From Patiria pectinifera (taxonomy: Eukaryota; Echinodermata; Asteroidea; Valvatida; Asterinidae): 64,000 nucleotides of DNA. This document shows, piece by piece, positions 30,154 to 57,133 of this stretch (the first letter of the stretch is position 1; each line of letters opens with the position of its first letter). Below the pieces are notes generated by a model. The model did not search any database and was not told the DNA's origin. It was given only the letters and a program-made list of their open reading frames with translations. The position numbers were made by a program, and so were the translations under genes. The stretch is taken from the NCBI GenBank assembly GCA_029964075.1, contig CM057130.1:5766001-5830000 (forward strand). Reading direction: 5' to 3'.

Positions 30154-30218
30154 TACAAAATGTTCTGTGTTCTGTGTGATTTATAAAACACATAATGCGA
30201 AATGACAAAACACAACGG

Positions 30219-30361
30219 CTAGCACATTCTTGAAACATCGCAGTGAATGTCATGTACACACACTGCACAAAGTATTGCTGTACGCAGCAGGTAAAACATC
30301 ATGACTAATAATACCACTGCTAGTGCAACTGCGCCGTGCCATATTGTTGCGCCATTGTGCA
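30219..30361 (-). CDS. candidate alternative exon: membrane segment with stop
   Basis: Just 76 bases after the signal-exon donor lies a strong acceptor (poly-T then ATTTCAG at 30362). Entering in phase 1 from the signal exon, the frame reads VHNGATIWHGAVALAVVLLV and on through MMFYLL to a stop after 46 codons: a hydrophobic helix and a cysteine-rich tail. It could be an alternative second exon giving a mini membrane protein, or the relic of one. In arm A' the acceptor is kept, but a stop appears after about 12 codons (near 44320). The open frame could be chance. Confidence 0.35.
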
Positions 30362-30437
30362 CTGAAATAAAAAAAAAACAATCTGTTTGAAGTAAACCAT
30401 ACATTCAGTAATAAACAGCTTTTGTTCGCAGACTTAC

Positions 30438-30513
30438 CTGCCAGGTGGGCAGATGGCAACACGCACACCAATAGTGCAGATGTCAGGAACAGACTGCGAA
30501 GAAACATCTCCAT
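30438..30513 (-). CDS. signal-peptide exon of the arm-A Ig gene
   Basis: The ATG is at 30513 in the context CACCAAAATGG; a second in-frame ATG follows two codons later. The exon reads MEMFLRSLFLTSALLVCVLP then SAHLA and ends in phase 1 at the donor GGCAG|GTAAGTC (30438/30437). This is a clear signal peptide with cleavage likely after the SAHLA region. The five exons 30438-30513, 25810-26181, 24974-25279, 24029-24094 and 21292-21470 total 999 nt and join without frame errors, making this the intact copy. The arm-A' counterpart is interrupted by a transposon. Confidence 0.88.
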
Positions 30514-30599
30514 TTTGGTGTCAATATGTTAGTGTACAAGACAAGTGAATGTATCGCTCGTATGAGGCCTAAACAGTCGATGGGTACTACGCAGTCAAG

Positions 30600-30725
30600 A
30601 ATGAGAAACGAACGAGTTTGCAAGACGCTGCGTGTGGTTCTCTTCACTTTCCTTCTCACTGAGTCGAGTGTTTGCGATGTCTGATCTTCTGACCTGAACC
30701 CTTCTCCTATTTATCGACAAAAACA
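30600..30725 (-). promoter_or_regulatory. probable upstream region of the arm-A gene
   Basis: On the minus strand GAAAGTGAAGAGAACC lies about 130-150 bases ahead of the start codon and is preserved at about 40437-40452 ahead of the A' gene. It resembles IRF/ISRE-type GAAAGTGAAA sites. A TATA-like GATAAATAG lies near 30710 but is not preserved as such in the other copy. The transcription start is unknown. Confidence 0.35.
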
Positions 30726-31344
30726 TGAGCAAGGGACTGTCCCTTCTGAGCATACAGGAAGAATCTATTTTGGGAACCTACCACACAGTGACGGTGACGT
30801 CATTTTTATTTCACCAGACTGGGGGTGGGAAAAAAAATCGAAAGTGGTCGCTTGTAATATCCATGCAGTATTCCGCTGGAAGTCAATTGCTTTTGAATCG
30901 TGTGGAATGTTGATTTTTCAAAAAGATGTTCCTCATTGCGGTTATATGATGTGATATCGTTATCCTTGCCAAAATAATAATATTGTTAATATTAGAGGAA
31001 ATGTTTTAGTTTTTTTTCCAAAACGCAAGAGGATTTGAAGACAGAATTGGTATCTTTATCGTGTGTCTTCGTAATGCTTTGGTTGGAGAACAGCCAAGGG
31101 GAAAGTTATGACATCTTTTTGGGGGGACAAATATTTGTTTCTTTCAAGTCAATTCTGTTGGGGGTTTGACAGATCTATTGTGAGAAAATCCCCCGATAAT
31201 TTTAGACTCTTTCATAGGAAATGACATAAAGTCAGGGAAGGGAAAAACTAACAACGTGTCACTTCCTTCAAATATTTGAGCCAATCACCAATCTTGGTGA
31301 TTTTGCTTTCTTCCAACTTGTCTGTTCCTCTTCCTAAATTCGAG

Positions 31345-31540: not shown

Positions 31541-31655
31541 GATGTTCCCCAATACCTATGTTCCCCAAAAATCCTTAGGGTTAGGGTTAGGGTTAAGGTT
31601 AGGGTTAGGGTTAGGGTTGGGGAAGATAGGTACTGGGCAACAGAGGTAATGGAAC
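31541..31655 (+). repeat. TTAGGG tract between inverted arms, copy 1
   Basis: About seven TTAGGG units (one variant TTAAGG) lie at 31575-31618. To the left is GATGTTCCCCAATACCTATG and to the right GGTTGGGGAAGATAGGTAC, which is roughly its inverse. Two more copies are at 54148-54265 and 62054-62170. Confidence 0.8.
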
Positions 31656-32395: not shown

Positions 32396-32946
32396 CTCCC
32401 CGGCGGGGAATCGAACCAAGGGCGGATCCAGGGGGGGGGGGGGCCAAAGGGGGCCATGGCCCCCCCCCAAAACGAAACCAATTTTTTTTTTTTTTATGTG
32501 ACATCGCAATAAAGACACACCACAATCTTTTCCTAAAAAAAAATGGTTAAAGTGGTCAGAAATTGCCTCAGATCGCACCATAGAGTATCTAGAATCCAAA
32601 ATTTTTCGGGGCCCTTAAGCGGGCCCCGAACCCCACGCCGTAAGGGCTTCGCGCTTGCATCAGTAATGATCAAGGTATGTCCCCCCCCCACTTTTGAGAA
32701 GCGATTGACGCCCCTGCTTGACGCCCCCATGAAATGTTCCAGCCCCCAGCGCCCCCCAGCGCCCCCACTGAAAAATTCCTGGCTACGCCACTGCCCGAAC
32801 CTCACGCCGCAATTTTTTTGACCGACTTTTTGGGGGGACCGAAATTTTTTTGGCCCCCCCCAAAATTGTGTTCTGGATCCGCCCTTGAATCGAACCCCGG
32901 TCTCCTGAGTGACAGTCAGAGATACTAACCACTATACTACCGAGGA
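32396..32946 (-). pseudogene. tRNA-Asp gene split by a hAT MITE in the T arm
   Basis: The bases 32396-32416 and 32896-32946 together make the 72-nt tRNA-Asp sequence. The 471-bp element at 32417-32887 sits in the T arm and duplicates AATCGAAC. The insertion breaks the internal B-box promoter and the cloverleaf, so this copy is inactive. Its counterpart in the next block (33806-33877) is intact. Confidence 0.92.
32417..32887. mobile_element. hAT-type MITE inside a tRNA gene, 471 bp
   Basis: The ends are CAAGGGCGGATCCAG and GGATCCGCCCTTG, with a perfect target duplication AATCGAAC (32409-32416 and 32888-32895). The orientation is reversed relative to 14691-15020. It is longer than its relatives because about 150 bp (roughly 32640-32795) looks like another hAT fragment, ending CTGGCTACGCCACTG, and a CCCGAACC(C/T)CACGCCG segment is repeated around it. 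Confidence 0.9.
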
Positions 32947-33030
32947 TTGGTGACAATGAGTAATTAACTCAGCTTTTTTACCGTGACAGACATTGAACGA
33001 TACGAAATGACAAAAGAAAACCCTAGTTGC

Positions 33031-33102
33031 CTCCCCGGCGGGGAATCGAACCCCGGTCTCCTGAGTGACAGTCAGAGATACTAACCACTATACTACCGAG
33101 GA
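33031..33102 (-). tRNA. tRNA-Asp(GUC), array 1 gene 3
   Basis: Full 72-nt sequence identical in the mature region to gene 1. The spacer ahead of its 3' end reads CCCTAGTTGC, a variant shared with gene 9, its partner 931 bp further on. Confidence 0.95.
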
Positions 33103-33186
33103 TTGGTGACAATGAGTAATTAACTCAGCTTCTTTACCGTGGCTGACATTGAACCATACGAAATGACAAAAGAAAACCATAAATGC

Positions 33187-33258
33187 CTCCCCGGCGGGGA
33201 ATCGAACCCCGGTCTCCTGAATGACAGTCAGAGATACTAAACACTATACTACCGAGGA
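33187..33258 (-). tRNA. tRNA-Asp(GUC), array 1 gene 4 (variant)
   Basis: 72 nt with the GTC anticodon kept. Two changes from gene 1: loop position 38 is T, and one D-arm base differs (GTTTAG for GGTTAG). Gene 10 has the same two changes, which shows the block duplication. Confidence 0.85.
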
Positions 33259-33342
33259 TTGGCGACAATGAGTAATTAACTCAGCTTCTTAACCGTGACA
33301 GACATTAAACGATACGAAATGACAAAAGAAAACCCTAATTGC

Positions 33343-33414
33343 CTCCCCGGCGGGGAATCGAACCCCGGTCTCCTGAGTGACAGTCAGAGATACTAACCAC
33401 TATACTACCGAGGA
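33343..33414 (-). tRNA. tRNA-Asp(GUC), array 1 gene 5
   Basis: Full 72-nt copy identical in the mature region to gene 1, with intact cloverleaf and internal promoter boxes. Confidence 0.95.
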
Positions 33415-33506
33415 TTGGTGACAATGAGTAATTAACTCAGCTTCTTAACCGTGACAGACATTAAACGATACGAAAGGAAAAAATAAAACCCTAAATAAAA
33501 CCCTAA

Positions 33507-33565
33507 AATCGAACCCCGGTGTCCTGAGTGACAGTCAGAGATACTAACCACTATACTACCGAGGA
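33507..33565 (-). pseudogene. tRNA-Asp lacking its 3' acceptor side, copy 1
   Basis: The 3' part of the acceptor stem and T stem is replaced by repeats of CCCTAAATAAAA. The anticodon and D arm remain. It cannot form an acceptor stem. An identical truncation recurs at 34438. Confidence 0.85.
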
Positions 33566-33649
33566 TTAGTGACAATGAGTAATTAACTCAGCTTCTTTCC
33601 CGTGACAGACATTGAACGATAAGAAATGACAAAAGAAAACCCTAAATGC

Positions 33650-33721
33650 CTCCCCGGCGGGGAATCGAACCCCGGTCTCCTGAGTGACAGTCAGAGATAC
33701 TAACCACTATACTACCGAGGA
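33650..33721 (-). tRNA. tRNA-Asp(GUC), array 1 gene 7
   Basis: Full 72-nt copy identical to gene 1; first gene of the second 931-bp block. Confidence 0.95.
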
Positions 33722-33805
33722 TTGGTGACAATGAGTAATTAACTCAGCTTCTTTACCGTGACAGACATTGAACGATAAGAAATGACAAAAGAAAACCCTA
33801 AATGC

Positions 33806-33877
33806 CTCCCCGGCGGGGAATCGAACCCCGGTCTCCTGAGTGACAGTCAGAGATACTAACCACTATACTACCGAGGA
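33806..33877 (-). tRNA. tRNA-Asp(GUC), array 1 gene 8
   Basis: Full 72-nt copy. It is the intact counterpart of the hAT-interrupted gene at 32396-32946. Confidence 0.95.
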
Positions 33878-33961
33878 TTGGTGACAATGAGTAATTAACT
33901 CAGCTTTTTTACCGTGACAGACATTGAACGATACGAAATGACAAAAGAAAACCCTAGTTGC

Positions 33962-34033
33962 CTCCCCGGCGGGGAATCGAACCCCGGTCTCCTGAGTGAC
34001 AGTCAGAGATACTAACCACTATACTACCGAGGA
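33962..34033 (-). tRNA. tRNA-Asp(GUC), array 1 gene 9
   Basis: Full 72-nt copy identical to gene 3, exactly 931 bp from it. Confidence 0.95.
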
Positions 34034-34117
34034 TTGGTGACAATGAGTAATTAACTCAGCTTCTTTACCGTGGCTGACATTGAACCATACGAAATGACAA
34101 AAGAAAACCCTAAATGC

Positions 34118-34189
34118 CTCCCCGGCGGGGAATCGAACCCCGGTCTCCTGAATGACAGTCAGAGATACTAAACACTATACTACCGAGGA
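34118..34189 (-). tRNA. tRNA-Asp(GUC), array 1 gene 10 (variant)
   Basis: Carries the same two variant bases as gene 4, exactly 931 bp away. Confidence 0.85.
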
Positions 34190-34273
34190 TTGGCGACAAT
34201 GAGTAATTAACTCAGCTTCTTAACCGTGACAGACATTAAACGATACGAAATGACAAAAGAAAACCCTAATTGC

Positions 34274-34345
34274 CTCCCCGGCGGGGAATCGAACCCCGGT
34301 CTCCTGAGTGACAGTCAGAGATACTAACCACTATACTACCGAGGA
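34274..34345 (-). tRNA. tRNA-Asp(GUC), array 1 gene 11
   Basis: Full 72-nt copy, partner of gene 5 at a distance of 931 bp. Confidence 0.95.
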
Positions 34346-34437
34346 TTGGTGACAATGAGTAATTAACTCAGCTTCTTAACCGCGACAGACATTAAACGAT
34401 ACGAAAGGAAAAAATAAAACCCTAAATAAAACCCTAA

Positions 34438-34496
34438 AATCGAACCCCGGTGTCCTGAGTGACAGTCAGAGATACTAACCACTATACTACCGAGGA
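34438..34496 (-). pseudogene. tRNA-Asp lacking its 3' acceptor side, copy 2
   Basis: Same truncation as 33507-33565, at a distance of 931 bp. Confidence 0.85.
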
Positions 34497-34580
34497 TTGG
34501 TGACAATGAGTAATTAACTCAGCTTTTTTACCGTGACAGACATTGAACGATACGAAAGGAAAAAATAAAACCCTAAATGC

Positions 34581-34652
34581 CTCCCCGGCGGGGAATCGAA
34601 CCCCGGTGTCCTGAGTGACAGTCAGAGATACTAACCACTATACTACCGAGGA
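34581..34652 (-). tRNA. tRNA-Asp(GUC), array 1 gene 13
   Basis: Full-length copy with one change in the variable region (CACC for GACC on the minus strand); anticodon and stems kept. Confidence 0.9.
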
Positions 34653-34736
34653 TTGGTGACAATGAGTAATTAACTCAGCTTTTTTACCGTGACAGACATT
34701 GAACGATACGAAAGGAAAAAAGAAAACCATAAATGC

Positions 34737-34808
34737 CTCCCCGGCGGGGAATCGAACCCCGGTCTCCTGAGTGACAGTCAGAGATACTAACCACTATACT
34801 ACCGAGGA
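34737..34808 (-). tRNA. tRNA-Asp(GUC), array 1 gene 14
   Basis: Full 72-nt copy identical to gene 1, outside the 931-bp blocks but on the same 156-bp period. Confidence 0.95.
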
Positions 34809-34892
34809 TTGGTGACAATGAGTAATTAACTCAGCTTTTTTACCGTGGCAGACATTGAACCATACGGATTGACAAAAGAAAACCATAAATGC

Positions 34893-34964
34893 CTCCCCGG
34901 CGGGGAATCGAACCCCGGTCTCCTGAGTGACAGTCAGAGATACTAACCACTATACTACCGAGGA
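34893..34964 (-). tRNA. tRNA-Asp(GUC), array 1 gene 15
   Basis: Full 72-nt copy identical to gene 1; last intact gene of the array. Confidence 0.95.
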
Positions 34965-35048
34965 TTGGCGACAATGAGTAATTAACTCAGCTTCTTTACC
35001 GTGATAGACATTGAACCATACAAAATGACAAAACAAAACCCTTAATGC

Positions 35049-35080
35049 CTTTCCGGCACCATTCTTGTGAGTGACGGTAA
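35049..35080 (-). pseudogene. degenerate tRNA-Asp remnant ending array 1
   Basis: Only the start of the 3' part and a GTGAGTGACGGTAAG piece of the anticodon arm can be aligned. The B' counterpart is at 58849-58890. Confidence 0.5.
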
Positions 35081-35835: not shown

Positions 35836-37320
35836 TTGTTATTGTTATTATTATTATTATTCTGGTTTATTAATCATTGTGTTTGTAGCCAGAGGCTAAA
35901 TTGTCACAATGCGTCAAATTAAAAGCACAAAATCAGAAATACAAATTTACTAAAACATTTACCAACATACAAATATCAGAATACAGTACATTTAAAAAAA
36001 ATGAGTTAAGATTTGCACATCGGAATATAAGAAAGGCGCACTCTACCAGAATAGTACATGATAAAAAAAAGCTTTTGTTTTTTTTTCTTCCTAGGAATGC
36101 AGTACATGAATAAATGATAGGAATTTGTATTATTGTATTTTACTAATTTTTTTTATTTTTGATTATCAAATTCTTATATGAATGGGAGTTAAGACTGGGA
36201 ACTGTTGTTCAAAAGGTCAACAAAATATGGGATGGGGCTATTCTGGTATCGTTTAGTCTTGCACATCATTTTGCATAAGTTGTCACTGTTTCTAAGCTGA
36301 TATTGCACATGACTACTTCTCGGCTGAGGTAACCAGTCCTGAAATAAGCTAGGGTTTTTCAGTTTGTTAGCAAAGTCAAGACAGAGATCCATTCTACGGT
36401 TTTGAAGAGAAACTAAATTGCATTTCATTAGGGCGTGCTCATAATCCACATAATCAACTCCCAGTATAATTTTGAGGGCACGTTTTTGGATGCTCTCCAG
36501 TTTATCAACATGAACTTTAGTTAACCCCGCATTCCAAACCTGTGTAGCATATTCAGGGAGTGGACGAATGTAGCCTTTGTATATTGTTAACAAGTCTGAA
36601 AGTGATAAGTTAAATTTCTTCAACAATTTGAGCATAAAAATTTTGCTGTTAGCCTTATGAAAGATGTGATCGATATGTTTGTCCCATTTGAGGTCTGAAC
36701 TAACCAAAAAGCCAATAATTTTCACACGATCTACTATCTGAAGGTCAGTATCCGAAATCTGAATGGGTGAAAACTGAGGTATATTTTTCATGAAACACAC
36801 ATTCATATAAGCACATTTATCAGGATTGATTTACATAATGTTTTGCACAGCCCATTCACTAAATTCATCTAAGACAGCCTGGATAACTATCGGTTCATTG
36901 TTTGTACTATTTTCAACAATGATCATCTACATATTTCAGACTCAGAATCTAACTGTTAGTAAGAGCCCCAAACCTTACTTCATCATTAAATTTGGCAAGA
37001 AAACCCAAGGGACCAAATTTAGTCCCCTGTGGAAGACCACCATTCAAAACATTGAATTCAGATAACGAGTTTTTGTACCTGACGCACCGATCGATCAGTC
37101 AAAAGAACTGCATATCCAGGGATAACAGATGAGCGTGTGCCCAAAATGGAGTAAATCCTTAACAAGAAGATTGTGGTCAACTAGATCAAAAGCCTTACTA
37201 AAATCTGTTATGACTATTGTGCTGTAACTTTTAGAAGCTTCAGCATGCAAACACAAATTGTCAACCAGCTTGATAAGGTAATGAGCTGTTGACGCTCCTT
37301 TCATATTACCAAATTAACGT
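35836..37320 (-). mobile_element. CR1/L2-like non-LTR retrotransposon, decayed 3' part
   Basis: Minus-strand pieces code for the C-terminal half of a reverse transcriptase: the KAFDLVDHNLL palm motif near 37180, the GLPQGT motif near 37030, the YVDD box near 36920, and then a 205-codon frame (36189-36806) with IIGFLVSSDLKWDKHI, YATQVWN and SIQKRALKIILG, typical of CR1/L2/Jockey thumb regions. Frames are split by stops and frameshifts and the 5' part is absent, so it is inactive. A TAA/ATT microsatellite tail lies at 35836-35862. It sits inside a degenerate TTAA MITE; unit B' has that MITE (60464-60777) without the insert. Confidence 0.88.
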
Positions 37321-39793: not shown

Positions 39794-40382
39794 AGACAAG
39801 TGGAAGACAGCAAAAATCATGAAGATAGCTGATTGGCTCAAATATTTGAAGGAAATGTCACATTGTTAATTTATCTCTTCCCCTGACTATAATGTGTAAT
39901 TTCCTCTAATAGAGTCTAACATTTTAGGGTTTTTTTCTCAAAAATATATCATTTAAACCCCAAGCAGAATCGACTTGTAAGAAAACAGACATCTGTCCAA
40001 AAAAGATGTCAACTTTCCCCTTGGCTGTGCTCCAACTGAAGCATTGCGTAGACACACGAAGGAAGTACCAATTCTGTCTTCAAATCCTCTTGCATTTTGG
40101 TAAAAATTTCCTCTAATATTAAAACAATATTATTATTTTGGCAAGTACAAGGATATAAAATCATAACCGCAATGAGGAACATCTTTTCGAAAAATCAACA
40201 TTCCACATGATTAAAAAGCAAAGCTGACTTCCTGTGGAATACTGCATGGATACTACAGGCGACCACTTTCTATTTTTTTCCCATCCCCCAGTCTGGTGAA
40301 ATAACAATGACGTCACCGTCACTGTTGGTCCACAAAATTATTCCTGTATGCTCAGAAGGGACAGTTTCTTGCTCGTGTTTTT

Positions 40383-40573
40383 GTCGATGAAAAGGAGGAG
40401 GTTTCGGGTCAGGAGATAAAACATCGCAAACAAAAGAAAGTGAAGAGAACCAGACGCAGCGTCTCGCAAACTCGTTGTTTCTCATTCTTGACTGTATAGT
40501 ACCCATCGACTGTTTAAGCCTCATAAGACCGATTATATTCACGTGTTGTACGCACCAGCCCAGTGACACCAAA
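40383..40573 (+). promoter_or_regulatory. probable upstream region of the arm-A' gene
   Basis: Collinear in inverse with 30514-30725. GAAAGTGAAGAGAACC is shared with arm A. The transposon lies downstream of it, so the original promoter is now separated from all but the first four codons by 3.5 kb. Confidence 0.35.
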
Positions 40574-40587
40574 ATGAAGACGTTTCT
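40574..40587 (+). pseudogene. severed start of the arm-A' signal exon
   Basis: ATGAAG followed by ACGTTTCT, the 8-bp target site. The transposon begins at 40588 and the rest of the exon resumes at 44138 with a second ACGTTTCT. Translation from this ATG runs directly into the transposon. Confidence 0.8.
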
Positions 40588-40618
40588 ATGGTGTACTATA
40601 AAGGACACCTATCTGTTA

Positions 40619-41404
40619 TCGTCGTGCGTGTGGGGAGCTCCGTCGTGCCTGTGAGCAGGTCCGTCGTGCCTGTGAGCAGGTCCGTCGTGCCTGTGAGCAG
40701 GTCCGTCGTGTTTGTGAGCAGACCGTCGTGCGTGTGAGTAAACCCGTCGTGCCTGTGAGCAGGTCCGTCGTGTTTGTGAGCAGAGCGTCGTGCGTGTGAG
40801 TAAAACCGTCGTGCCTGTGAGCAGGTCCGTCGTGTTTGTGAGCAGACCGTCGTGCGTGTGAGTAAAACCGTCGTGCCTGTGAGCAAGTCCGTCGTGTTTG
40901 TGAGTAGACCGTCGTGCGTGTGAGTAAAACCGTCGTGTTTGTGAGCAGACCGTCGTGCGTGTGAGTAAAACCGTCGTGCCTGTGAGCAGGTCCGTCGTGT
41001 TTGTGAGCAGACCGTCGTGCGTGTGAGTAAAACCGTCGTGCCTGTGAGCAGGTCCGTCGTGTTTGTGAGCAGACCGTCGTGCGTGTGAGTAAAACCGTCG
41101 TGCCTGTGAGCAAGTCCGTCGTGTTTGTGAGCAGACCGTCGTGCGTGTGGAGAGGTCCGTCGTGTTTGTGAGTAAAACCGTCGTGCCTGTGAGCAGGTCC
41201 GTCGTGTTTGTGAGTAAAACCGTCGTACGTGTGAGTAAAGCCGTCGTGTTTGTGAGTAAAACCGTCGTGCGTGTGAGTAAAACCGTCGTGTTTGTGAGTA
41301 AAACCGTCGTGTTTGTGAGTAAAACCGTCGTGCGTGTGAGTAAAACCGTCGTGTTTGTGAGTAAAACCGTCGTGCCTGTGAGAAAAGCCGTCGTGCCTAT
41401 GAGG
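40619..41404 (+). repeat. left minisatellite arm of the foldback element
   Basis: Roughly 37 tandem units of 20-21 bp with core GTGAGTAAAACCGTCGTG or GTGAGCAGGTCCGTCGTG. Variants GTGCGTGTGAG, GTGTTTGTGAG and GTGCCTGTGAG alternate in higher-order patterns. Confidence 0.92.
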
Positions 41405-41839
41405 CGCCATGTGTAAATAAATTATTTAACAAAATTATTTATATATAATTCATTATTTAAAATATAATGCAGTTTTCCGGTCAATTATATGTAAATAATT
41501 GTTTGGCAGTTTGCATTATATGTAAATAAATTTATTTGCCACTGCAATATTTATATATATACTTTTTTTTGGCAACCTTATTATTTATATATAATTTTAT
41601 GCAACCTTATTATTTATATATAATTTATTTGGTACCTCATTATTTACATATATTTTTTTGCACACTTTAATTATTTATTATATGATTTATTTGGTACCTT
41701 ATTATTTTATTATTATTTTTTGCACACTTTATTTATTGATATATAATGCATTATTTGTTATATAATTCATTATTTATTATATAATTCATTATTTATTATA
41801 TAATGCATTATTTTTTATATAATGCATTATTATATTTTA

Positions 41840-42800
41840 TCACTACAAGATAAAAGGCATCATGCGGCACAGACACATACTGTTGATCAGTCACGTAATT
41901 TTCTTCAATCAGCTGGTTGTTGCCATGGGGTACGTGTGCGCGGTAAACAGTAGCCTAATCGCGTCGGTGGGCGCGGCCAGGGAACACCTGGCCGCCCCAA
42001 TTATTTGTGGACGTGACATATTGAGGTTAGAGAAATTGTTCATATCGCTTAAATGATATGGATCGCGCGCCCAAAGGGGTAAAAGAAGCAATATCGATAC
42101 AGTGTATTAAGTCAAGTTCATTAATTAGGCTCAGAAAGTTCACTTCGGCTTAGCTTTTCGAAGCCGCTATACATGGAAAATAAACCCACCACCTCCCCTT
42201 CGCCTCCAACATTAAGAAATTAATTAAGGGCGAGATATTACTGGGTACGACGGGCAGTGCCTCAATTCAAAAGAAATAAATAGTTCTTAAGTAAGATTTT
42301 GAATTTTGACCAATTTTCACAAGTTCGTTTTAATCTTTAGAAACACTATGCCTAGCACCCTCTAGTACTGGTGGGGCTTATTCCAACCGTGTTTTCCAAC
42401 GGTGGGAACAAATCGGCGTGCCTTTTTTCAAGTTTATTGTTAAGAAATTTTGGCATTTTTCAAGTTTATTCTTAAGTAATTTAGGCGTATTATAAATTCA
42501 AGTCACGTGACAAATAACACTGTGACTAACACTAATTTGTTCTGATGGGGTTAGTATCCAACCGTTGTTTCTAGCGGTGGATATATTCGCAGTGAATGAT
42601 TGGCAAGCGTGCCAAGATTTGGGCCCAGTGATGCCAAGCATGGCAAGGATTTGGGGCAAACGTACGTGCCCCCGTTTTTTTTTCTGGCCAATGTGCCAAA
42701 ACTAATTGGGTTAATAACATTTGAATAAAACAAACTAAAATGGCGGCTGGAAAAAACTATGCCAAAAAGTCAAACTTTTGTTTCAAGGTGTTTTTGTGTG
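41840..42800. other. central region of the foldback element
   Basis: Mixed-composition DNA between the AT-rich inner arms. A 64-codon frame at 41862-42056 and a few others lack any recognised domain. Two related phrases, CCAACCGTGTTTTCCAACGG (near 42388) and CCAACCGTTGTTTCTAGCGG (near 42559), suggest an internal repeat. Confidence 0.5.
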
Positions 42801-43223
42801 TGGTCTGAGAATAATTATTGTATAATGCATTATATAATAAATAATGAAAGTGTGCAAAATATATATATATAAATAATGAGGTACCAAATAAATTATATAT
42901 AAATAATACAGTGCACAAAAATTATATATAAATGAAAAAGGTTGCAAATAAATTATAAATAAATTTTAAAAAAAGGGTGCAAAAATTATATATAAATAAT
43001 AAGTTTGCAAATAAATTATATATAAAAAATTCTAGTTTGCCCAAAAATATATGTAAATAATTAGGTTGCAAAAAAAATTATATCTATAAATATTGCAGTG
43101 GCAAATAAATTTATTTACATATAATGCAAACTGCAAAACAATTATTTACATATAATTGACCGGAAAACTGCATTATATATTAAGTAATGAATTATATATA
43201 AATAATTTTGTTAAATAATTTAT

Positions 43224-44110
43224 TTACACATGGCGCCTCATAGGCACGACGGCTTTACTCACACGCACGACGGTTTTAATCACAAACACGACGGTTTTAC
43301 TCACAAACACGACGGTTTTACTCACACGCACGACGGTTTTACTCACACGCACGACGGTTTTACTCACAAACACGACGGTTTTACTCACACGCACGACGGT
43401 TTTACTCACAAACACAACGGTTTTACTCACACGCACGACGGTTTTACTCACAAACACGACGGCTTTACTCACACGTACGACGGTTTTACTCACAAACACG
43501 ACGGACCTCCCCACACGCACGACGGACCTGCTCACAAACACGACGGACCTGCTCACAAGCACGACGGTTTTACTCACACGCACGACGCTCTGCTCACAAA
43601 CACGACGGACCTGCTCACAGGCACGACGGTTTTACTCACACGCACGACGGTCTGCTCACAAACACGACGGACCTGCTCACAGGCACGACGGTTTTACTCA
43701 CACGCACGACGGTCTGCTCACAAACACGACGGACCTGCTCACAGGCACGACGGTTTTACTCACACGCACGACGGTCTGCTCACAAACACGACGGACCTGC
43801 TCACAGGCACGACGGTTTTACTCACACGCACGACGGTCTGCTCACAAACACGACGGACCTGCTCACAGGCACGACGGTTTTACTCACACGCACGACGGTC
43901 TGCTCACAAACACGACGGACCTGCTCACAGGCACGACGGTTTTACTCACACGCACGACGGTCTGCTCACAAACACGACGGACCTGCTCACAGGCACGACG
44001 GACCTGCTCACAGGCACGACGGACCTGCTCACAGGCACGACGGACCTGCTCACAGGCACGACGGACCTGCTCACAGGCACGACGGAGCTCCCCACACGCA
44101 CGACGATAAC
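43224..44110 (-). repeat. right minisatellite arm of the foldback element
   Basis: Roughly 42 tandem units, the inverse of the left arm, ending in a homogeneous run of CACGACGGACCTGCTCACAG units. The arms differ in unit number, so they have changed since they were last identical. Confidence 0.92.
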
Positions 44111-44116
44111 AGATAG

Positions 44117-44210
44117 GTGTCCTTTATAGTACACCATACGTTTCTTTATCACAGTCTGTTCCTGATCTCTGCACTATTGGTGTGCGTGTTGCCATCTGCC
44201 CATCTGGCAG
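44117..44210 (+). CDS. signal-peptide exon of the arm-A' gene, start now supplied by the transposon end
   Basis: After the insertion the remaining exon reads TFLYHSLFLISALLVCVLPS then AHLA and reaches the same phase-1 donor (GGCAG|GTAAGTC at 44210). The host ATG is 3.5 kb upstream. The transposon terminal repeat happens to supply an in-frame ATG at 44117 (MSFIVHH...), keeping a hydrophobic leader of 31 codons. With that start the exons 44117-44210, 48127-48477, 48561-48932, 49470-49775, 50963-51028 and 52511-52647 total 1326 nt, 441 residues plus stop. Whether it is transcribed is unknown; it may be a pseudogene at its 5' end. Confidence 0.6.
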
Positions 44211-45228
44211 GTAAGTCTGCGAACAAAAACTGTTTATTACTGAATGTATGGTTTACTTCAAACAGATTGTTTTTTATTTCAGTGCACAGTGGCCCAACAA
44301 TATGGCACGGCGCAGTATAGCAGTGGTATGATGTTAGTAGTATCTTTTTACCTGCTGTGTACATACAGCAATACTTTGTGCAGTGTGTGTACATGACATT
44401 CACTGTGATGTTTCAATATGTGCTGGCCGTCGTGTTTTGTCATTTCGTATTATTTTGGCCCCCATTTTTATAAATCACACAGAACACAGTACGTAGGCCT
44501 GCCTGTGTTTGTGTTCACGAACTAACCACATAATACCACACAGGCGGCGTACTCAGCTTGAATGTGGCATCTCTGAGAAGTTTGACACTAGTCATTCTTG
44601 CAAAAAAATCGGGGTCAGTTGCGTTTTACTGTACATTTATGTAGACTTGTCGATGAAATATTCGAATAAAGATTATTTGACTCTGCCTTATTTGGCTCAT
44701 GTTGGGGGTAAATTTAGCTAGCCCATCAGAGTTTGTGGTAGTCGAGTGGGTGTTTCGAGTCCCACCAGTGTAAGTTAGCTCGTCATTTCTTTCCTCGCAA
44801 GCTCAAATACTACTCTGAATAACAGTGCTGACAAAATTACCTTCGGCTTGGGGCAAAACACGATAAAGTGACCATTAGAAATGGTACGTAAGCATACGTG
44901 TCTCGGAAAAAATACGTTGCTTAAACCACCGTTTTGCGTGATTATTTCATCTGGCATACTATGGGCAATGTGTATTTCACATCAAAGTATTAAGATGTAT
45001 ATTACCTGTATAAAGGTTTTGTGAAATAACCATACAAAATGGTGAGATAGCCAGCTAGCTTTATTTTTCAGTTTTCCATTTCGCACACTGAATCTCGGAC
45101 AGCACTGAGTATAGATAGAGTGTTTGTATTCATTAAGATTGGTGAAGGGCAAAATCAAACTTTCATGTGTTTGTTTGTATGCGTCTGTTTGGTCATGTTT
45201 AGTGATAATTGATAGTAGTGGTGATGAT

Positions 45229-46184
45229 AATCCCGGGACATACCGTTATTTCGTTTTACCGTTTTGCATTTCCTCAAAAACAAAAATAGTAAACGCACCG
45301 TTGACCGTTTTGTCGTTTTACAGTTTTGTAAAACGGTCAAACGGTATTAGGTCACAAAAAACAATGACCTTTTTGTTGTTTTTCTTAATTGTTGAAAGCG
45401 ATAAACGGTTAGTTGCTTCATTTCAGAGTGTTGTTTTACAAGAACATGACAATGAAAAACGGTCAATAGTCCTGTCGACCATTTTTTGATTTAGGTTCGG
45501 CAATTAAGCAATGCACTTAGGAATGTTTATGCGTCCTCATGGGATCGAGTCATTGCCTGGGACCCAAATTACCCTCCTCACATTTCGTTCTCACGACATA
45601 GTTTTCGAACTGGCTATTGAAAAGCCGCGCCGAACTCCAATTTCCTTCAAATATCTGCAACTTCTTCAAACGTATTACCATCCCGTATCCATTGTAAAAA
45701 GTAATGTCCTCCCTTGAAGTTTTCCAGCGCCATTTTTGCTTGCAACTCTTAAGCCCCACCAACTGAATCGCGTGAGAAGGGGGTCAGGGTCACGCCAGGA
45801 ATCATCACACCACGATTATGCCGAGGTAACACTTTTTCATGTAAAGCATGGTCCCCCTCCATCCCCCTTGCCCAGCACCACAAAATGCACCACGGACTGT
45901 TCACTATGACACTGAAATTAAAAAAAACAACAGTCTGTATTCAATACTGACCGTTTTGATGTTTTTCAAAGTTATTTGTGTAAAAGTGTAAAACAAAAAT
46001 CATTGATCGTTATGCTGTAATGAATTTTATTAAACTTATAAAACAGAGAAACCGTATTTATCTTAATACCGTTTGACCGTTTTACAAAACTGTAAAGCGA
46101 CAAAACGGTCAATGGTTTGTTTACTGTTTTTGTTTTGAGGAAATGCAAAACGGTAAAACGAAATAACGGTATGTCCCGGGGATT
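45229..46184. mobile_element. inverted-repeat element, 956 bp, arm A' only
   Basis: The ends are AATCCCGGGACATACCG and CGGTATGTCCCGGGGATT. The inverted repeats extend about 130 bp inward and contain ACCGTTTTGC and CGTTTTACAGTTTTG words. The flanks share GATGAT (45223-45228 and 46185-46190), and the empty site is seen in arm A near 28605-28620. No transposase frame. Superfamily not assigned. Confidence 0.8.
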
Positions 46185-47378
46185 GATGATGAATGGTTAT
46201 CCTTGGGGTACCGTGTCCGTGGGTTACGCTCGACGCCCGAGTCAGATGCACAGAAAATGTTGTTGTTGTTTTTTTTTTTTAGAACAGCAGTCTTGTAACA
46301 ACTTCAGAATAAGTCCCCGAGTGTCACTGACCGTCTTTAAGCAGGGAATAGAAGAGCTTTAGAAATTGTAAAGCTGGGCGTGCATATCATTTCATACATC
46401 TAGAGGCATTTTCATCCGCAAAATTTGTTTTTGAAGACTTTGGTCCACTTACAAATGAACTTTGAGTGTGTTTTATTTTCTTTATTTTATCCAAAAAATT
46501 GCTTTTTATATATATTTCGACGGCTTCAACTCTCTGAAAAAGGCTTTTATTTTGAGTTGCCTTTGCGCACACAGATCTGCCCGAACATTATTTTCAATGT
46601 TTGTTTTAATTTCAGTAACATTTTTTCCCCATCAAAAGCACATTAAAAGCATCTTAAGATCAACAGGGGCCTAAGTAGTCATATTAAGATATGGGAATTA
46701 CTTTTTTAAAAGGTCGAAGCTTATATCTGGGCATGCCTATACTTCAGTGCACAACTGTAAAAAAAAAAAATGCAAAGAATTTAAAGAAAAGCAAACACAC
46801 CAACAGACAAGTACAAATGAAGCGTTGACAATGACCAACGACGGACTGACAAAAAGGAGTCAAAGACAATTATTGATCCTAAACTTGGCCCCCAGTCTAC
46901 CCTGCGAGAACAGATTGACTAGTCGCAATTGTTTTGTGCAGTAAATAATCCATAACTTATAAACGTACATGGGCCATTTTTTTCGGTCGGTGTCTCTTTC
47001 AAAAGTGAGCAACTTTGTATGTTGCTAGAAAAGTAGCAATCAAAACGAAGAATAATATCTATTGTTGGTTTATACATGCAACTCTGAAATAGAACGGACA
47101 GAAAAGCTTGTTCTACGGGTCCTTTTTAATTTTCAGATGTATAAACTAAAATAACCATCGATCCATGCGCAATGTTCGTTGTTGACTTCAGTTAATTCAT
47201 TGCATAAATATCGCAGCTTTCTCTAGTAATTATTACAAACCATGTGATGGTTAACCAGCGCACGCTAGAGCACGTTTGGCATGTCCTGCATCTAGACTGA
47301 TATGCTTAGACTATGGCCGTGTTTCGACTTTACTTTCTCTTATACCGTCTAGTGTTCGGTTATGTAAACTTTTAATCA

Positions 47379-47623
47379 TGGGCGTCGCGGGGGAGGGGGA
47401 GGGGGGCCCTTCCCCCCCCCGGACAAGCCAAAAAAAGAGAGAAAAAACAAGAAAAAGAAAAAGAGGCGCGAAGTCATATTGCTGTTAATTTAAAGGGGTG
47501 GGGATAGGGCGGAATGTCCCTGCCCACCCTCGAAAAAAAGGATATGCTGGAAAAGTATAGGGATTTTGGAAAAAAAATGTGCTTTGCCCCCCTCTAGAAA
47601 AAAATCCTGGCGACGCCCATGCT
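47379..47623. mobile_element. MITE-like element, counterpart of 26692-26940
   Basis: It begins CATGGGCGTCGC and ends GGCGACGCCCATG, in inverted orientation relative to the arm-A copy and at the matching intronic place. Confidence 0.6.
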
Positions 47624-48126
47624 GTTGCTTCCGATTTGTTTTCGAGAGATGTCTTGACGTTTTAATTTATGTCTGTATTAAATTCGTATAGACCATTGCA
47701 AAACATAGATTATCTTTTGTATGGATGTTGATTCCTATATGTTCGAATTCTTCTTTCCTACTCAAATTACATGCATTCCGTAAAATGGTTCAGTATTCAT
47801 CAAAGGCAAGGAAAAGGCAGTGGTTAGTCAAACTGATGAATCCCTGTATCAGTCATTAGGGCAACAAGGCAAAAGGCACAGGTGAAGAGAGTCGGGCAGT
47901 GCTATTGAATAGGATTACCGTGTAATGGGCTTACTCTGGACGTTGGGTACACCTGACTATCAATTTAATATACATTTTGCACGCTCTGTGGCCAGTTTTA
48001 CAAGGCTCGTGTTGTCTTATTTCATTTTAATTTGAAAACAAATTTGAGAGTAAAATAACTATTTTAGGCTTTATTATTGCTGTTCGCCTGTTAATTGAGA
48101 ATTAACAACAATATATTTTTTTTCAG

Positions 48127-48477
48127 CCGCAACCATACTGGCCACACTGAGACCTTTCAATCCGAGCGTACCAGAAGGAGGACAGATCAGGCTGAACTGT
48201 ACCGGCGTAACCCCGAACTGTGAATACAAGAGCGTTCTGTACAAAGCGGAGGGCAACAGCGAAATGGGAGACGTTATAGCCAGCAATCTGACATCGTCCC
48301 AGAGTTGCAGCTGCGATGCTGCACGTTGCTACCCAAGCACGATTTTCATCATAACAGCCACTCTGAAGGCTGCCGGGACGTACGGGTGCGTGGTGCTTCC
48401 AAACGGTCAGCCGCAACCAACATTAGAGATTAACCGCGCTTATCGGAACCGCGAGACGAACGTTACCGTATGCGAGG
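48127..48477 (+). CDS. extra Ig1 exon (Ig1a) of the arm-A' gene
   Basis: 351 nt (117 codons), phase 1 to phase 1. The acceptor is a poly-T tract then CAG at 48126 and the donor is GCGAGG|GTAAATATG at 48477. It reads AATILATLRPFNPSVPEGGQ onward, keeps VPEGGQIRLNC, NSEMGDV and KAAGTYGCVV, and ends in VCEG. It is seven codons shorter than Ig1b and differs from it at roughly 20 positions, so it is the more divergent version. The frame is open throughout, which argues for a working exon. Arm A has no counterpart. Confidence 0.85.
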
Positions 48478-48560
48478 GTAAATATGAACTACTTTAGGCT
48501 TCACCTTGTTATGCTGTTCGCCTGTTGAGAATTACCAACAATATTATATATTTTTTTCAG

Positions 48561-48932
48561 CCGCAACCATACCTACCACACTGAGACCTTTGAATCCGAG
48601 CGTACCAGAAGGAGGACAGATCAGGCTGAACTGTACCGGCTCAACCCCGGACTGTGAATTCAAGAGCTATCTGTACAAAGCGGAAGGCAACAGCGAAATG
48701 GGAGACGTTAGACCCGTGCAAGCCAGCAATCCGACATCGTCCCAAAATTGCAGCTGCGATGCTGCACGTTGCTCCTCAAGCACGATTTTCGTCATGACAG
48801 CCACCCTGCAGGCTGCCGGGACGTACGGGTGCGTGGTGCTTGCAAACGGTCAGCCGCAACCAACATTAGAGATTAACCGCGGTGGCGAACTGGGTTATCG
48901 AATCCACGAGACGACGGTTACCGTTTGCGAGG
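48561..48932 (+). CDS. Ig1b exon of the arm-A' gene
   Basis: 372 nt (124 codons), phase 1 to phase 1. The acceptor is ATATTTTTTTCAG at 48560 and the donor is GCGAGG|GTAATATG at 48932. Only 83 bases of intron separate it from Ig1a, and that intron resembles the one before Ig1a, the sign of a tandem exon-plus-intron duplication. Against arm-A Ig1 only about eight residues differ. All cysteines, the NCT and NCS sequons and the AAGTYGC motif are kept. Confidence 0.88.
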
Positions 48933-49469
48933 GTAATATGAACTTTACTCCACCAGTTTGGTTTACAATGCGTTATACCATAAGGATTTCACGATATTAA
49001 AAATTGAAATTAAGAATGGTCATGTTTGTGTCCTAATACTGAATTGCTTGAGCTTTGATTCTGTTATCTTAAAAACAAAAACAAACCCAACTAAAACCCA
49101 TTTGTTTTACTATTGAAAAAAAGTTTGAAAATGAGTTTCAACGAATTCAAGGACGATGATTTTTGTTATTTTTTTTCCCCACAACAATTCTACATTGATA
49201 ACGAAAGAAGTTTTCGCAAGCAGTTGAGGTCATGGTCTCCGTCGTCCTCGGATGTAATGTGTTGCAGTGTGCACAAATGTGAAACGTTTAATTTTTATAT
49301 GCAATAAGCGAATGCATCGATTTTTTTTTTTGCATTTATTGTGTCATTGTGGTGAAAGTGTTTAATAGAGACAATAACTCTGCAATACTCAGATAACCCG
49401 GTATGAAGTTCCACCATTTTGGCTAATTGTGAGGTTTGGTTTCGATACTCTTTCCCTCTTTCAAAACAG

Positions 49470-49775
49470 AACCAGATCTAGGTCTGCACGAACACAGCAA
49501 TAGCAACTACACCACCGTGAATGCCATTGATAACTGCCACTTCGGGAGTGTGCTGAGCTGGCGGATCAACGGCCACCCCGTCCCCCGGGAGTCGGCGTCT
49601 CCCGCCCCGTCGGCCGAGCTCTCGCCGCCCGCCGCCGTTCACAGGGACAACGACCTGCTGGCAATCAGCAAATGCGACCGCTGGGCCACGAGGACCCCGT
49701 GCACCGTCACAGCAGAATTCAGGTACATCTCGGCACGTCGCTTGAAAGTCGCCAGCATATCGACAGATATTCATG
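49470..49775 (+). CDS. Ig2 exon of the arm-A' gene
   Basis: 306 nt, phase 1 to phase 1, between CTCTTTCAAAACAG and CATG|GTAAGAAT. It begins EPDLGLHEHS. The C-strand tryptophan (LSWRING) and the cysteines match arm-A Ig2. Ten of eleven replacements versus arm A lie in the first 40 residues. A sequon NYT is present in the variable part. Confidence 0.85.
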
Positions 49776-50962
49776 GTAAGAATCACGGCGAATCATATGG
49801 GTGCACCCCTGCATTAAATTTCCCATAGACACAATAGTGCCCCCATTTTCCCCAAAGCGGAAAAGTAGCCTTCTTGAAAAACGATCCCTCCACAACATGG
49901 CAAGATAAAGCGCCACTTTGAGCCCAATTGCATCCCAAATGCTCAGAATTGGAAGCCCCAATTCCGGGCCAGAGGTTCATTGCCATATCTCTTCGATTGC
50001 CCAATGTTATGGCTCTCAGGACTCTCAAATATAGACTATTTTGAGGATATAATTTCTATTCATGATCTCGGCGGATGGGTTTTGGCCTATTTACCGGTGA
50101 GCACCCATAGGCAGCCATCGACAAGTCCCGCTGGTCGCCATTGATTTGGGCCTCCGTGTGTTTACAGTGATCGCATGGCCAGATTCGTCCATAACTTTCC
50201 CCACAGAGGACATAAGTGCTGGGAATAGTTTGTGCAATGTTTTATTCCTTTATATACTTCAGATTGTACAGTCCCCGACCTTCACTTTTTTCAACTACAA
50301 CCCTTGTCGGATTTAAAACTGCCCAACAGTAACATCATGAATTTGTTTCATTTCATTTATGATACACTCAGTGTACTAAACGTCACATCATTAAAACAAA
50401 ATAGTCATTATGTAACACAAGTTATTTGTTCATAGGAGGTTGTTGTGTACCAATCCTAGAGTGTCTTTAGAGTGTGTATAGAAAGAAATGATGTGTCTTA
50501 GCGTAGCGCATAGCCGTGCAGCGGAAAAAACAAAATCATTAGAGACGGAGAAGAAACTTTCACTGAAGGAATAAAATAAAACTCGTGGAAAGGAGGGTTA
50601 GGTAGGGTGTTTTATTGAGGCACCAACTAAAAACCAACTAAAGAGAAGAGACAGAAGAAAGTGAGTGAAGGAGAAAGTGGAAGTATAGGAGAAGAGAGGG
50701 GGAGAGGGGCTAATTAAATACAAATATGGGAATGTGTGTGTAAGTGTAATAAATAAAACTGTTAAAATTAAAGGAATAGGATGAGGATTGTGGGTATAGG
50801 GTGTGGTTTTTTGAGGACACACATGACACCACACAGAGTGTCTGAATGGAGACAAATATGTGTATAATACCTAAATTTAAGGAAGTATAAAAATAAAGAT
50901 GTAAGGAATAAATAAGTAATTAAATTATATTAACATTTGGCGTGAATTATAATCCACTGCAG
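49776..50962. other. intron between Ig2 and linker exons of the arm-A' gene
   Basis: Inverse counterpart of 24095-24973 with about 300 additional bases. A purine-rich stretch lies at about 50575-50720 (AGAGAAGAGACAGAAGAAAG). No exon is supported. Confidence 0.55.
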
Positions 50963-51028
50963 ATTGCTGCGTTGGCCTTCCATCAACTGTGGTTCCCACT
51001 AAGCCTCTTCGGACACAGACATCAGAGG
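50963..51028 (+). CDS. linker exon of the arm-A' gene
   Basis: 66 nt, phase 1 to phase 1, acceptor AATCCACTGCAG, donor GAGG|GTAAGTC. It reads DCCVGLPSTVVPTKPLRTQT followed by SEG. Same length and frame as 24029-24094; Asp is replaced by Gly in the cysteine-pair region and the last residues differ. Confidence 0.8.
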
Positions 51029-52510
51029 GTAAGTCTAGTTCTCATGAAATGATTTTTTTTTTCAAATTGAAAGAAAAAGAACAAGTTTGCCAAGTGCCAC
51101 TAACATACTTTGCTTGTCTAATAACACTGTCACTGTCATGCAATTGTGATTTTATGGCGTTTTCCAAGCCTCGGTTTTTTTCTTCCGACTTGGGCTTCAG
51201 TACTTGTGGAACTTCGAAATCAATATACAATGTAGATCCATCTTTTATTTCTATATTTGGATTCGACGATAAGGGTTTTAAGCAGGTGAGAGCTAGAGGT
51301 GAGCCGAAGTTGGAGGCGAGGCCGCGGTTTGGAAAACCTCTTTCATTGGAGTCACTGCTTGTTCTCCTTTTAAGACTCAGTTTCATGGCGCTGCTAAACA
51401 GAAAATGGTTAGGTTTATAGCAAATATCGAAAGCTAAGGGAACCAGTCAAAATATGTACACGCATGACTGTGTACATCACGTGACATTTTGGCTGGTAAC
51501 CTGTTTCTGCTTAGCAAATATTCTCTGTGATTAGCTCCGTGAAGTAAGCCCCAGAGCTCTTTGAATCGACCGTGAATCGAAGGTGACTCGAGGAGAGGGA
51601 AGAACACCCTCTTAAAAGTCCCTATATTGACCCGGCATCTGCGTTCTATTTGACCTTACACTTTTCAGGGTCGAAAAACCTGTTTTTCTGGGTTAAACTC
51701 CTTTGGAAAGCAGTTTTTAAACTGAAATGGACTACCCGCGCTAAAGATTTCAATTTAATAAAACATTCAAAAGAATAAATGCTGACACTTTTCATTTACC
51801 GGGTAATTTCGACCGGCAATTCTTGACGAAAGTGTCATTCTGGCCAAGAAAAGTGTGAGTTTTTGACAATGAAAAGTGTTTGGTAAAAGAAAACCCTGGA
51901 TTTGGTCAAATCGGACCAGTTCTCAGCCAAATCCAAAATCCCTCGTACTGCCGAACTGCTCAACTCCTTGTCAGAATCCTGCTTTCCCATTTCTTCTTAT
52001 TTTTTTCTTATTTAAAGCAAAGTGTCAACCGCGACTTTCTTTCTCGTAATATGTCAGTTTTTGTGAGGAGAGCTACCACATCAAATGGCACCTGGGTTTG
52101 TGGTCGACGAACTTATTTTAATTAAAAACTTAGGATGTTAGGATGAACAGACTCCATGCACATAGCAAAATAAAGAACGAGTCGGTTTAGAACTATATTT
52201 AGTTCCGAGTGCTCCTTGGAGATTTAATATCCGCTGGTTTGCCCGTCTGAACTCCAATTGGCCGGTAAGCATGCATGCAATACGTGTACCATAGCATTTT
52301 TTTCTTTGATGCAAAGCTCGAGCAAATCTTTTCTTTTCAAATTTTCCAAAATTAATCAAATTCAGGTTTCACAAAGCTTACAAAACAGACTTTTATCCCA
52401 TACTCTCTTTGAAATTACTTTGTGGCGTATAAGCCCTACTCTAAAACCCCCAACTGAAACTACTCGACCATTGTATCTAACTATCATCACCCCTTCTTGG
52501 AATTGTACAG
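51029..52510. other. last intron of the arm-A' gene
   Basis: About 1.5 kb against 2.6 kb in arm A. It lacks the block of about 1.2 kb that holds the TTAA MITE there. No exon is supported. Confidence 0.5.
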
Positions 52511-52647
52511 AACCTCTTACGAAAGTCTTGGAACTGATGGAGGAGCTTCTGCCCCTCCAGATTAGATTCTTCAAGAAATGGAGTCGAACCAGCCCCGACC
52601 AGCTTGCTCAAGTCATCGCAAGGGCGACCTTGGATGAGCAGGCCTAG
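52511..52647 (+). CDS. terminal helical-tail exon of the arm-A' gene
   Basis: Acceptor GGAATTGTACAG at 52510. It enters in phase 1 and reads 44 residues (EPLTKVLELMEELLPLQIRF, then FKKWSR...) to TAG at 52645-52647. It lacks about 14 codons present near the start of the arm-A version, yet the frame, the helix and the stop context are kept. It also has three extra residues at the end (DEQA for DD). The product is predicted to be secreted or associated through this helix; no membrane exon was found further downstream. Confidence 0.8.
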
Positions 52648-53614
52648 TCGAACTTCAAGGGATAGCTTGTCTTCCCCCATTATATAGCTACATTTTGATT
52701 TTACGTATTTGATTTACATATTATGGAACACGACCGGTACGGCACGTGACCCTGGGCATGCGCACGAGTGCATTGTTACTTTTTTCTCCGTGTAAGCTAG
52801 ATACCCATCCCGTACTCTGACCCCAAAAATGATAATTTTTCCCATAACGATTTTTTATTTGTGTGTTAGAGAAAGAACTCCTTTATCCGAGTTTGGGCGT
52901 CTGCAACCCTATGAAAAAAAGGGCTTTCAGTTTGCGCAAAAAAAACACAAAACCAATCAACCCGCTCTGCCAGAGCCGAATTGGAAGTTTTGGAAGAAAA
53001 TTTAATTCAATAACTACACGTCCAATGTATCATTTAAAAGTAAATAACTTTATATTTTGCTAGGAAAACAGCCATTGGAAGTTTTTTAGACGAAACTCGA
53101 AAAATATCAAGGGGTGTCATCGAAAATATCAAGGGGTGTCATCTTTAATAAAGCTCCGCGTGTTCACCCAGAGATTATTATAATCATGGCACCTGTTGTC
53201 GTGTGGCTGTTTCAATAGTGAAATGAGAAGGAAATTGATAACATTTAATAGTTTAAATTAACAGAATCTGTTGGAATAAAGATCTGAGTGATATTAACAC
53301 AATTACATTAAATAATTTTATGTGCTTATTAACAGTGCAGTGGGTAATACAACGTATATGCTAGTAGGATTCAAACGCGTTTTATAACTTTTGTAATTTA
53401 CTTCAATTCATTCCGGTAATTTGCTACATCGGAATATTAGCATTTTATAACAGTCTAGTGGTTTTATAACTTTGAAACTGTAAATTTTATTTAAAATGTG
53501 AACTATTGTGGAAATCGATTAAAAATTGAATATTTGGCATGCACTGGAAAAAGAATGGAAAAATTGGGGGGAAAATGAGATAGAATATCAAGGTGCGCAA
53601 TGTAAATTGAAAGA

Positions 53615-54121
53615 TGAATTTATGCCCTCCTTTTGTAAGTTTTGGTTTTCGGTTTTTCCAAAGCGTGTCCGATTTGTTGACGGATCTAACTTCGAGCGAG
53701 TGGATTTTATCAAATAGGTATTGCATCAATCCCTTGTGTTTATTTTTGATGGTGATAGCCAGGTTTCTGTTGGTCACCACGTCGTATTCGAGAGTCAAGT
53801 CCGAGATGGTATACATCATCGACGTATCTGAACTGTTGACGACTTTATTGTGATCATTAAATTTATCTCGTACGTCAGGGGTTGTTTTAAACCGTTGGGA
53901 TAAAAAGGGTGATGCACGGTCAGCATGTCGATGTCCAGCGGAATACAATATCTAAATGCGAGGGTAACCCTTCCCTTGCTTTTCAATAAACCGGCGCCCA
54001 CTTCCACCCCTTGGTCTATAGTTAGCTTGATGTGGGAATGATCGCTGATCAGCCTTTGACTAACGAGCTTCAAATTAACATCGAAAGCGAGGCTCTTAAT
54101 GTCAAGCCATTTGGAGCTCAA
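53615..54121 (-). pseudogene. repeat-associated coding relic at the A'/B' junction
   Basis: Two overlapping minus-strand frames (54121-53816 and 53948 down to about 53615) appear to be one coding region with a frameshift near 53830-53900. Recognisable parts are VEVGAGLLKSKGRVTLAFRY, then MMYTISDLTLEYDVV and LMQYLFDKIHSLE. The style resembles conserved repeat-borne proteins found in many copies in invertebrate genomes, some thought to be capsid-like, but that is recollection without a search. A short piece of the same relic opens unit B (31345-31520). Its place at both B borders suggests a role in, or a scar of, the rearrangement. Confidence 0.5.
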
Positions 54122-54147: not shown

Positions 54148-54265
54148 ATGTTCCCCAATACATATGTCCCCCAATACCTATGTTTCCCAAAATCCTTAGG
54201 GTTAGGGTTAGGGTTAAGGTTAGGGTTAGGGTGAGGGTTGGGGAACTTATAGTATTGGGCAAGGA
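54148..54265 (+). repeat. TTAGGG tract between inverted arms, copy 2
   Basis: About six TTAGGG units with one TTAAGG and one GTGAGG variant lie at 54197-54238, between GATGTTCCCCAATACATATG and GGTTGGGGAACTTATAG. Direct counterpart of 31541-31655. Confidence 0.8.
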
Positions 54266-56977: not shown

Positions 56978-57049
56978 CTCCCCAGCGGGGAATCGAACCC
57001 CGGTCTCCTGAGTGACAGTCAGAGATACTAACCACTATACTACCGAGGA
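56978..57049 (-). tRNA. tRNA-Asp(GUC), array 2 gene 1
   Basis: 72 nt with all arms. One acceptor pair is changed to G-U (plus-strand CCCCAGCGGGG). The anticodon GTC and the internal promoter boxes are intact. Confidence 0.85.
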
Positions 57050-57133
57050 TTGGCGACAATGAGTAATTAACTCAGCTTCTTAACCGTGACAGACATTAAA
57101 CGATACGAAATGACAAAAGAAAACCCTAAATGC

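Follow-up and report, generated by a model that had tools for sequence, protein, structure and literature searches.

An exon that, judged by eye, looks like the hydrophobic signal peptide exon of an immunoglobulin (Ig)-like gene in the sea star Patiria pectinifera is split by some 3.5 kb of DNA with inverted, repetitive ends, raising the questions of what was inserted there, by which kind of transposase and with what effect on the gene. The locus lies in a stretch of 64,000 nucleotides (contig CM057130.1 of assembly GCA_029964075.1, positions 5,766,001 to 5,830,000), hereafter the window; labels such as L001 denote loci in this analysis, and positions without such a label are those of the window. 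The original prediction was of a recently inserted foldback transposon of the sea-urchin TU type with an 8-bp target duplication. The insertion is real and is a fairly young, non-autonomous foldback element; the probability that it is a non-autonomous cut-and-paste foldback transposon of a multicopy family, lying in an exon of one of two duplicated Ig-like genes (that of arm B, below), is put at about 0.85. Its footprint is, however, 6 bp, and its ends are of a kind described for a different superfamily.

Boundaries and target-site duplication

The octamer ACGTTTCT, with which the exon was predicted to be cut and to resume, is indeed present at both junctions (40580-40587 and 44138-44145) and occurs exactly twice in the window. 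Chance alone predicts two matches in 64 kb, so that it is the position of the octamer beside inverted ends that carries weight; with random 3550-bp segments of the window, an 8-bp flanking match arose in 25 of 400000 draws. The octamer is not the target duplication, as is evident from sister copies of the element elsewhere in the genome. When these are aligned, a T precedes ATGG at every left end and an A follows CCAT at every right end; being constant, these two positions are part of the element, which leaves a duplication of 6 bp. The element thus occupies 40587-44138 (3552 bp, first base T, last base A) between copies of CGTTTC at 40581-40586 and 44139-44144, and the boundaries first proposed were out by one base at each end. 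Among 30 copies tested, an 8-bp repeat was found in the window copy and in no other, because there the flanking base is by chance A on the left and T on the right, the same letters as the termini of the element. Copies with ends at other positions had been named as what would refute the prediction; the comparison therefore removes the 8-bp reading but leaves the insertion itself standing.

Across 41 copies the 6-bp duplication is exact in 36, agrees at five of six positions in three (L012, L035 and L038) and is absent from two (L047 and L066). Five loci were dropped before this count: L024, whose flanks repeat those of L023 in reverse complement; L028 and L031, which share their flanks with L030; L022, the ends of which are unpaired; and L067, likewise unpaired and sharing a flank with L068. 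L066 was added as the 41st copy to 40 tabulated rows, and end pairs on C14 near 32.317, 42.380 and 45.896 Mb were left out. The target sites are biased, with C as first base in 17/40 and G as last in 22/40. More generally, one chance base per side is enough to make a 6-bp footprint look like one of 8 bp, and foldback assignments made on few copies could be rechecked in the same way.

Architecture and genomic copies

The inverted ends and minisatellite arms that had been predicted are borne out: the ends are a perfect inversion over 123 bp, and both arms consist of 20/21-bp monomers with a 62-bp higher-order unit (Table 1). Internal to these are AT-rich inner domains, identical at 163 of 168 positions in their outer part and at about 76% in their inner part, which enclose a middle domain of ~1 kb; two open reading frames (ORFs) of the latter, searched against Pfam, gave no match. 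A search of 613.5 Mb (1020 contigs) for the element ends, allowing up to three mismatches, returned 146 (69 forward, 77 reverse), compared with none for a reversed control pattern. Long inverted terminal repeats with a tandem-repeat domain, an inner domain and a middle, present in many copies with target-site duplications, together make up the foldback architecture.

The middle domain of the window copy is matched in 35 of 39 sequences. In 24 of the sequences, including that of the window and counting both L023 and L024, which are one duplicated locus, the long part of the middle shows a mean difference of 1.4%, with the window copy 1.2% from the majority; other copies have middles that are 91-96% alike, or about 72-91% in pieces, and some, e.g. 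L048, carry arrays of a different unit. The number of monomers per measured arm ranges from 10 to 85, the highest value being for the right arm of L012, which holds a duplicated end; no limits could be set for the arms of L043 or for one arm of L045, which are outside these counts. Copies are also nested, with L014 lying in the array and L030 in the end of another copy, each with its own 6-bp duplication. Self-insertions were located at L014 695-4742, L030 100-3693 and L038 1023; in L030 and L038, which have different flanks, both inner ends fall at one and the same position (ACACCT) in the terminal domain of another copy.

Homogenisation of the two arms within each copy was considered and is unsupported. 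When the 168-bp inner domain was compared in 22 copies, arms differed on average by 3.8% within a copy (3.0% in the window copy, with L021 an outlier at 17.4%) and by 3.2% between copies, and a copy's own other arm is its nearest relative in one case of 22; since arms within a copy are no more alike than those of different copies, frequent exchange between them lacks support. A separate observation concerns L010, the middle domain of which contains a 670-bp insert (about 2678-3348) with ends TAGCC..GGCTA and a 9-bp duplication (CGGTGGGCG), as examined in L010 alone; eight further copies have a gap of equal size at this site, and the window copy is without the insert.

The unoccupied paralogous site

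The element lies in one arm of an inverted duplication (20376-31323 / 39794-53615; 77-93% identity in pieces) that contains two Ig-like genes, in arms A and B respectively. The prediction that the arm-A copy preserves the unbroken exon is upheld, the minus strand at about 30438-30513 having a single copy of the target, ATGTTTCT, with seven of eight bases the same as in the octamer; arm A is thus intact at the insertion site. Used as a query against the genome, the right flank was found in two places, arms B and A. Between the arms, the left flank has a Kimura two-parameter (K2P) distance of 0.17 and the right flank one of 0.07. Because the arm-A site is without a duplication, the insertion came after the gene duplication. 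This order, the exact 6-bp duplication, the identical 33-bp ends and the 1.2% divergence of the middle agree with the proposed recent insertion, in relative terms, and the paralogous empty site and multicopy ends likewise agree with that of a foldback transposon in a signal-peptide-like exon. Near the arm-A exon there is also an inverted repeat, with exact pairing of successive 32-mers across 29885-29935 / 30087-30137 at the least.

Table 1. Parts of the inserted element, its target site and the exons of the Ig-like gene, in window positions
Feature	Position	Strand	Remarks
5' piece of split exon	40574..40586	+	begins at ATG
Target-site duplication CGTTTC, left copy	40581..40586	+	6 bp
Complete non-autonomous foldback element	40587..44138	.	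3552 bp; termini TATGG..CCATA; limits fixed by sister copies
Left flanking domain	40587..40619	+	33-bp end, same as right; 32/32 inner bases identical plus terminal T/A
Left outer domain	40620..41403	+	38 monomers of 20/21 bp, partly in 62-bp higher-order unit
Left AT-rich inner domain	41404..41843	+	outer 168 bp 97% identical to right arm
Middle domain	41844..42821	.	common to sister copies; matches in 35/39 sequences
Right AT-rich inner domain	42822..43236	-	
Right outer domain	43237..44105	-	42 monomers of 20/21 bp
Right flanking domain	44106..44138	-	33 bp
Target-site duplication CGTTTC, right copy	44139..44144	+	6 bp
3' piece of split exon	44145..44210	+	ends at GTAAGT donor
Unbroken homologous exon, arm A	about 30438..30513	-	empty site is single TGTTTC at 30501-30506
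Ig-like exon, arm-B gene	48127..48477	+	phase 1, open
Second Ig-like exon, arm-B gene	48561..48932	+	phase 1, open
Third putative exon, arm-B gene	49470..49775	+	phase 1, open; no Pfam match

Comparison with known foldback systems

TU elements make 8-bp duplications and have long inverted arms with an outer domain of 15-bp tandem repeats, an inner domain and a middle. The family described here shares this plan of inverted arms, with a minisatellite outer domain, inner domain and middle, and the window copy does have an 8-bp direct repeat; moreover, a sea urchin is listed among foldback hosts (PMC4079207). By contrast, the 8-bp repeat is confined to one of 30 copies, with 6 bp exact in 36 of 41, and the repeat unit is 20/21 bp rather than 15 bp, TU being set apart by its description rather than by its sequence. 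With ends that fit the description of IS3EU transposons (below), the TU identity of the original prediction is unsupported and improbable, the corrected boundary averting the filing of the element in a wrong family.

A Mutator-type element, as most foldbacks are, is another possibility. A relevant comparison is Tm1 of root-knot nematodes, titled Mutator/Foldback, which resembles the present family in having terminal inverted repeats (TIRs) composed mainly of short tandem repeats, of 13-15 bp units and varying number (PMC3169594). However, the duplications of Tm1 are of 8-10 bp, mostly 9 bp (45/53 elements), its end motifs are different, and one of its members reportedly has a putative transposase (PMC3169594); the 8-10 bp target-site duplication of Mutator/MULE foldbacks is not seen in this family, with its 6 bp, and membership of that group is hardly likely. 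Tetris of Drosophila virilis is similar in its long TIRs, organised in domains with tandem repeats, in its non-coding, variable middle and in the lack, as described, of a transposase, but is set apart, by description, by 8-10 bp duplications and 220-bp repeats (PMC4079207).

Superfamily assignment

IS3EU transposons are described as having TA..TA termini and duplications usually of 6 bp (PMC10045372), fungal families having 6-bp duplications, ends TAYGG..CCRTA and TIRs of over 30 bp (PMC12730594). The foldback family has the 6-bp duplication and the TA..TA termini; its ends, TATGG..CCATA, fit the published motif, and its TIRs likewise exceed 30 bp, whereas its arms of 20/21-bp minisatellite are unlike IS3EU, as is the lack of any transposase found with its ends. 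The superfamily is therefore inferred from the end motif and duplication length by themselves, and is probably IS3EU-type. Tandem repeats tied to IS3EU have precedent, in that a table gives two oyster satellites the label IS3EU (PMC8268682) and a beetle satellite has sequence in common with an IS3EU element (PMC5844308).

On balance, we favour the view that IS3EU/GingerRoot independently gave rise to a foldback lineage, with minisatellite arms of 10 to 85 monomers, that has been recently active, has inserted into itself and has knocked out an Ig-like gene. The TATGGTGTACTATAAAGGACACC ends would be recognised by a transposase acting in trans, with the minisatellite arms perhaps contributing repeated binding sites, and the element would be inserted at a 6-bp stagger, so giving the CGTTTC duplication; insertion into the signal-peptide-like exon of the arm-B gene followed the origin of the inverted pair of Ig-like genes. 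No link between IS3EU and foldback elements was found in the literature searched, where the single co-mention has 'foldback' in its reference list, and foldback arms on IS3EU-type ends are new as far as that literature reaches. If the view is correct, the foldback design arose convergently in transposons of the Mutator, P (Galileo) and IS3EU groups; should the IS3EU assignment hold, the design has arisen in a further transposase superfamily, supporting long repetitive arms as a convergent route to mobilisation.

Several results weigh against this proposal. A transposase gene flanked by TATGGTGTACTATAAAGGACA ends was not found, either by profile searches or at end-linked loci. None of 87 matches to the rva_4 profile (PF24764) lay closer than 46 kb to any of the 121 ends compared; of the 146 genome-wide ends, 100 were listed and 46 are outside the comparison with rva_4 positions. 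At 12 short and four longer rva_4 loci there was no TAYGG..CCRTA pair bearing a duplication, so the rva_4 genes of this genome are not shown to be IS3EU. Nor did any of 49 loci (L001-L048 and L065) match rva_4 peptides, of which four of 12 (L049, L053, L058 and L060) were in the right frame. An exact 6-bp duplication is missing from five of the 41 copies. With respect to the gene, three comparisons of exons between the arms give dN/dS values of 0.50, 0.94 and 1.42; the first two come from the closest exon pairs (dS 0.058 and 0.057) and leave constraint on the gene weak or unproven.

Other candidate sources of a transposase were also considered. A search with the rve_3 profile gave at least 100 matches, with no gene linked to the family's ends among the matches listed; many, in open frames of more than 1000 aa, are taken for retroelement polyproteins. 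The rva_4 family at L061 was rejected as a partner, its ends differing from those of the foldback family; it is a 3.76-kb multicopy sequence (L061 1009-4772) that contains an integrase-like ORF of the rva_4 type together with a tandem array of GTCGTGCGCACGAGATA, and five other copies are 98-100% identical over this span. A 12.3-kb end pair was likewise set aside as an autonomous member, as its frames look, by eye, like a gypsy-type polyprotein. The 5.2-kb end pair of L048 has a single non-array ORF of at least 90 aa (93 aa), and none of seven ORFs from the 8.2-kb end pair of L065 scored above the Pfam cut-off. Ends with a changed inner base numbered two in one search and 12 in another, and the three places examined all carry arrays.

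Effect on the arm-B gene

The first two arm-B exons downstream of the insertion score 19 and 21.6 bits with the Pfam ig profile, just under the cut-off of 21.8, and a search of Protein Data Bank (PDB) sequences gave weak matches to T-cell-receptor V domains (best E 0.015). Matching exons are present in arm A at 26181-25810 and 25279-24974; two Ig-like exons of one type are seen in arm B, compared with one in arm A. Searches of viral contigs with the Ig exon and with the element end found nothing, and a structure predicted by AlphaFold for the Ig-like exon was set aside (mean pLDDT 32.9).

The reading frame from the ATG runs for 26 codons before a stop inside the insert, and on the other side of the insert an in-frame TAG precedes the 3' piece of the exon, with no ATG between the two. 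The insert would thus halt translation early and separate the start codon from the rest of the exon, and the arm-B gene is probably inactivated, to judge from its sequence; the locus offers a candidate for a naturally occurring null of one member of the duplicated Ig-like pair. Removal of the insert as an intron, by which the signal peptide would survive without disruption, is very improbable: two donor/acceptor combinations do keep an open frame (upstream exon of up to 180 nt), but the better donor is very weak, scoring -2.4 compared with 12.6 for the gene's own exon-1 donor, the phase 1 GTAAGT of the split exon. That the inverted arms are an assembly artefact, built from reads of other copies, is most unlikely, since, although the arms are repetitive and multicopy and array lengths could be misassembled, each junction carries the 6-bp duplication proper to this locus, and the right flank has no match outside arms A and B.

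Other features of the window

Tandem 156-bp units with tRNA-Asp(GTC) genes lie at 32887-35057 and 56965-57996, the window having 19 tRNA genes by ARAGORN and 20 Rfam matches. Imperfect interstitial TTAGGG arrays of about eight units (31575-31622 and 54196-54243) stand beside both duplicated regions. On the minus strand, ORFs at 567-1196 and 36189-36830 resemble, by eye, another Ig-like domain and a reverse-transcriptase fragment, respectively.
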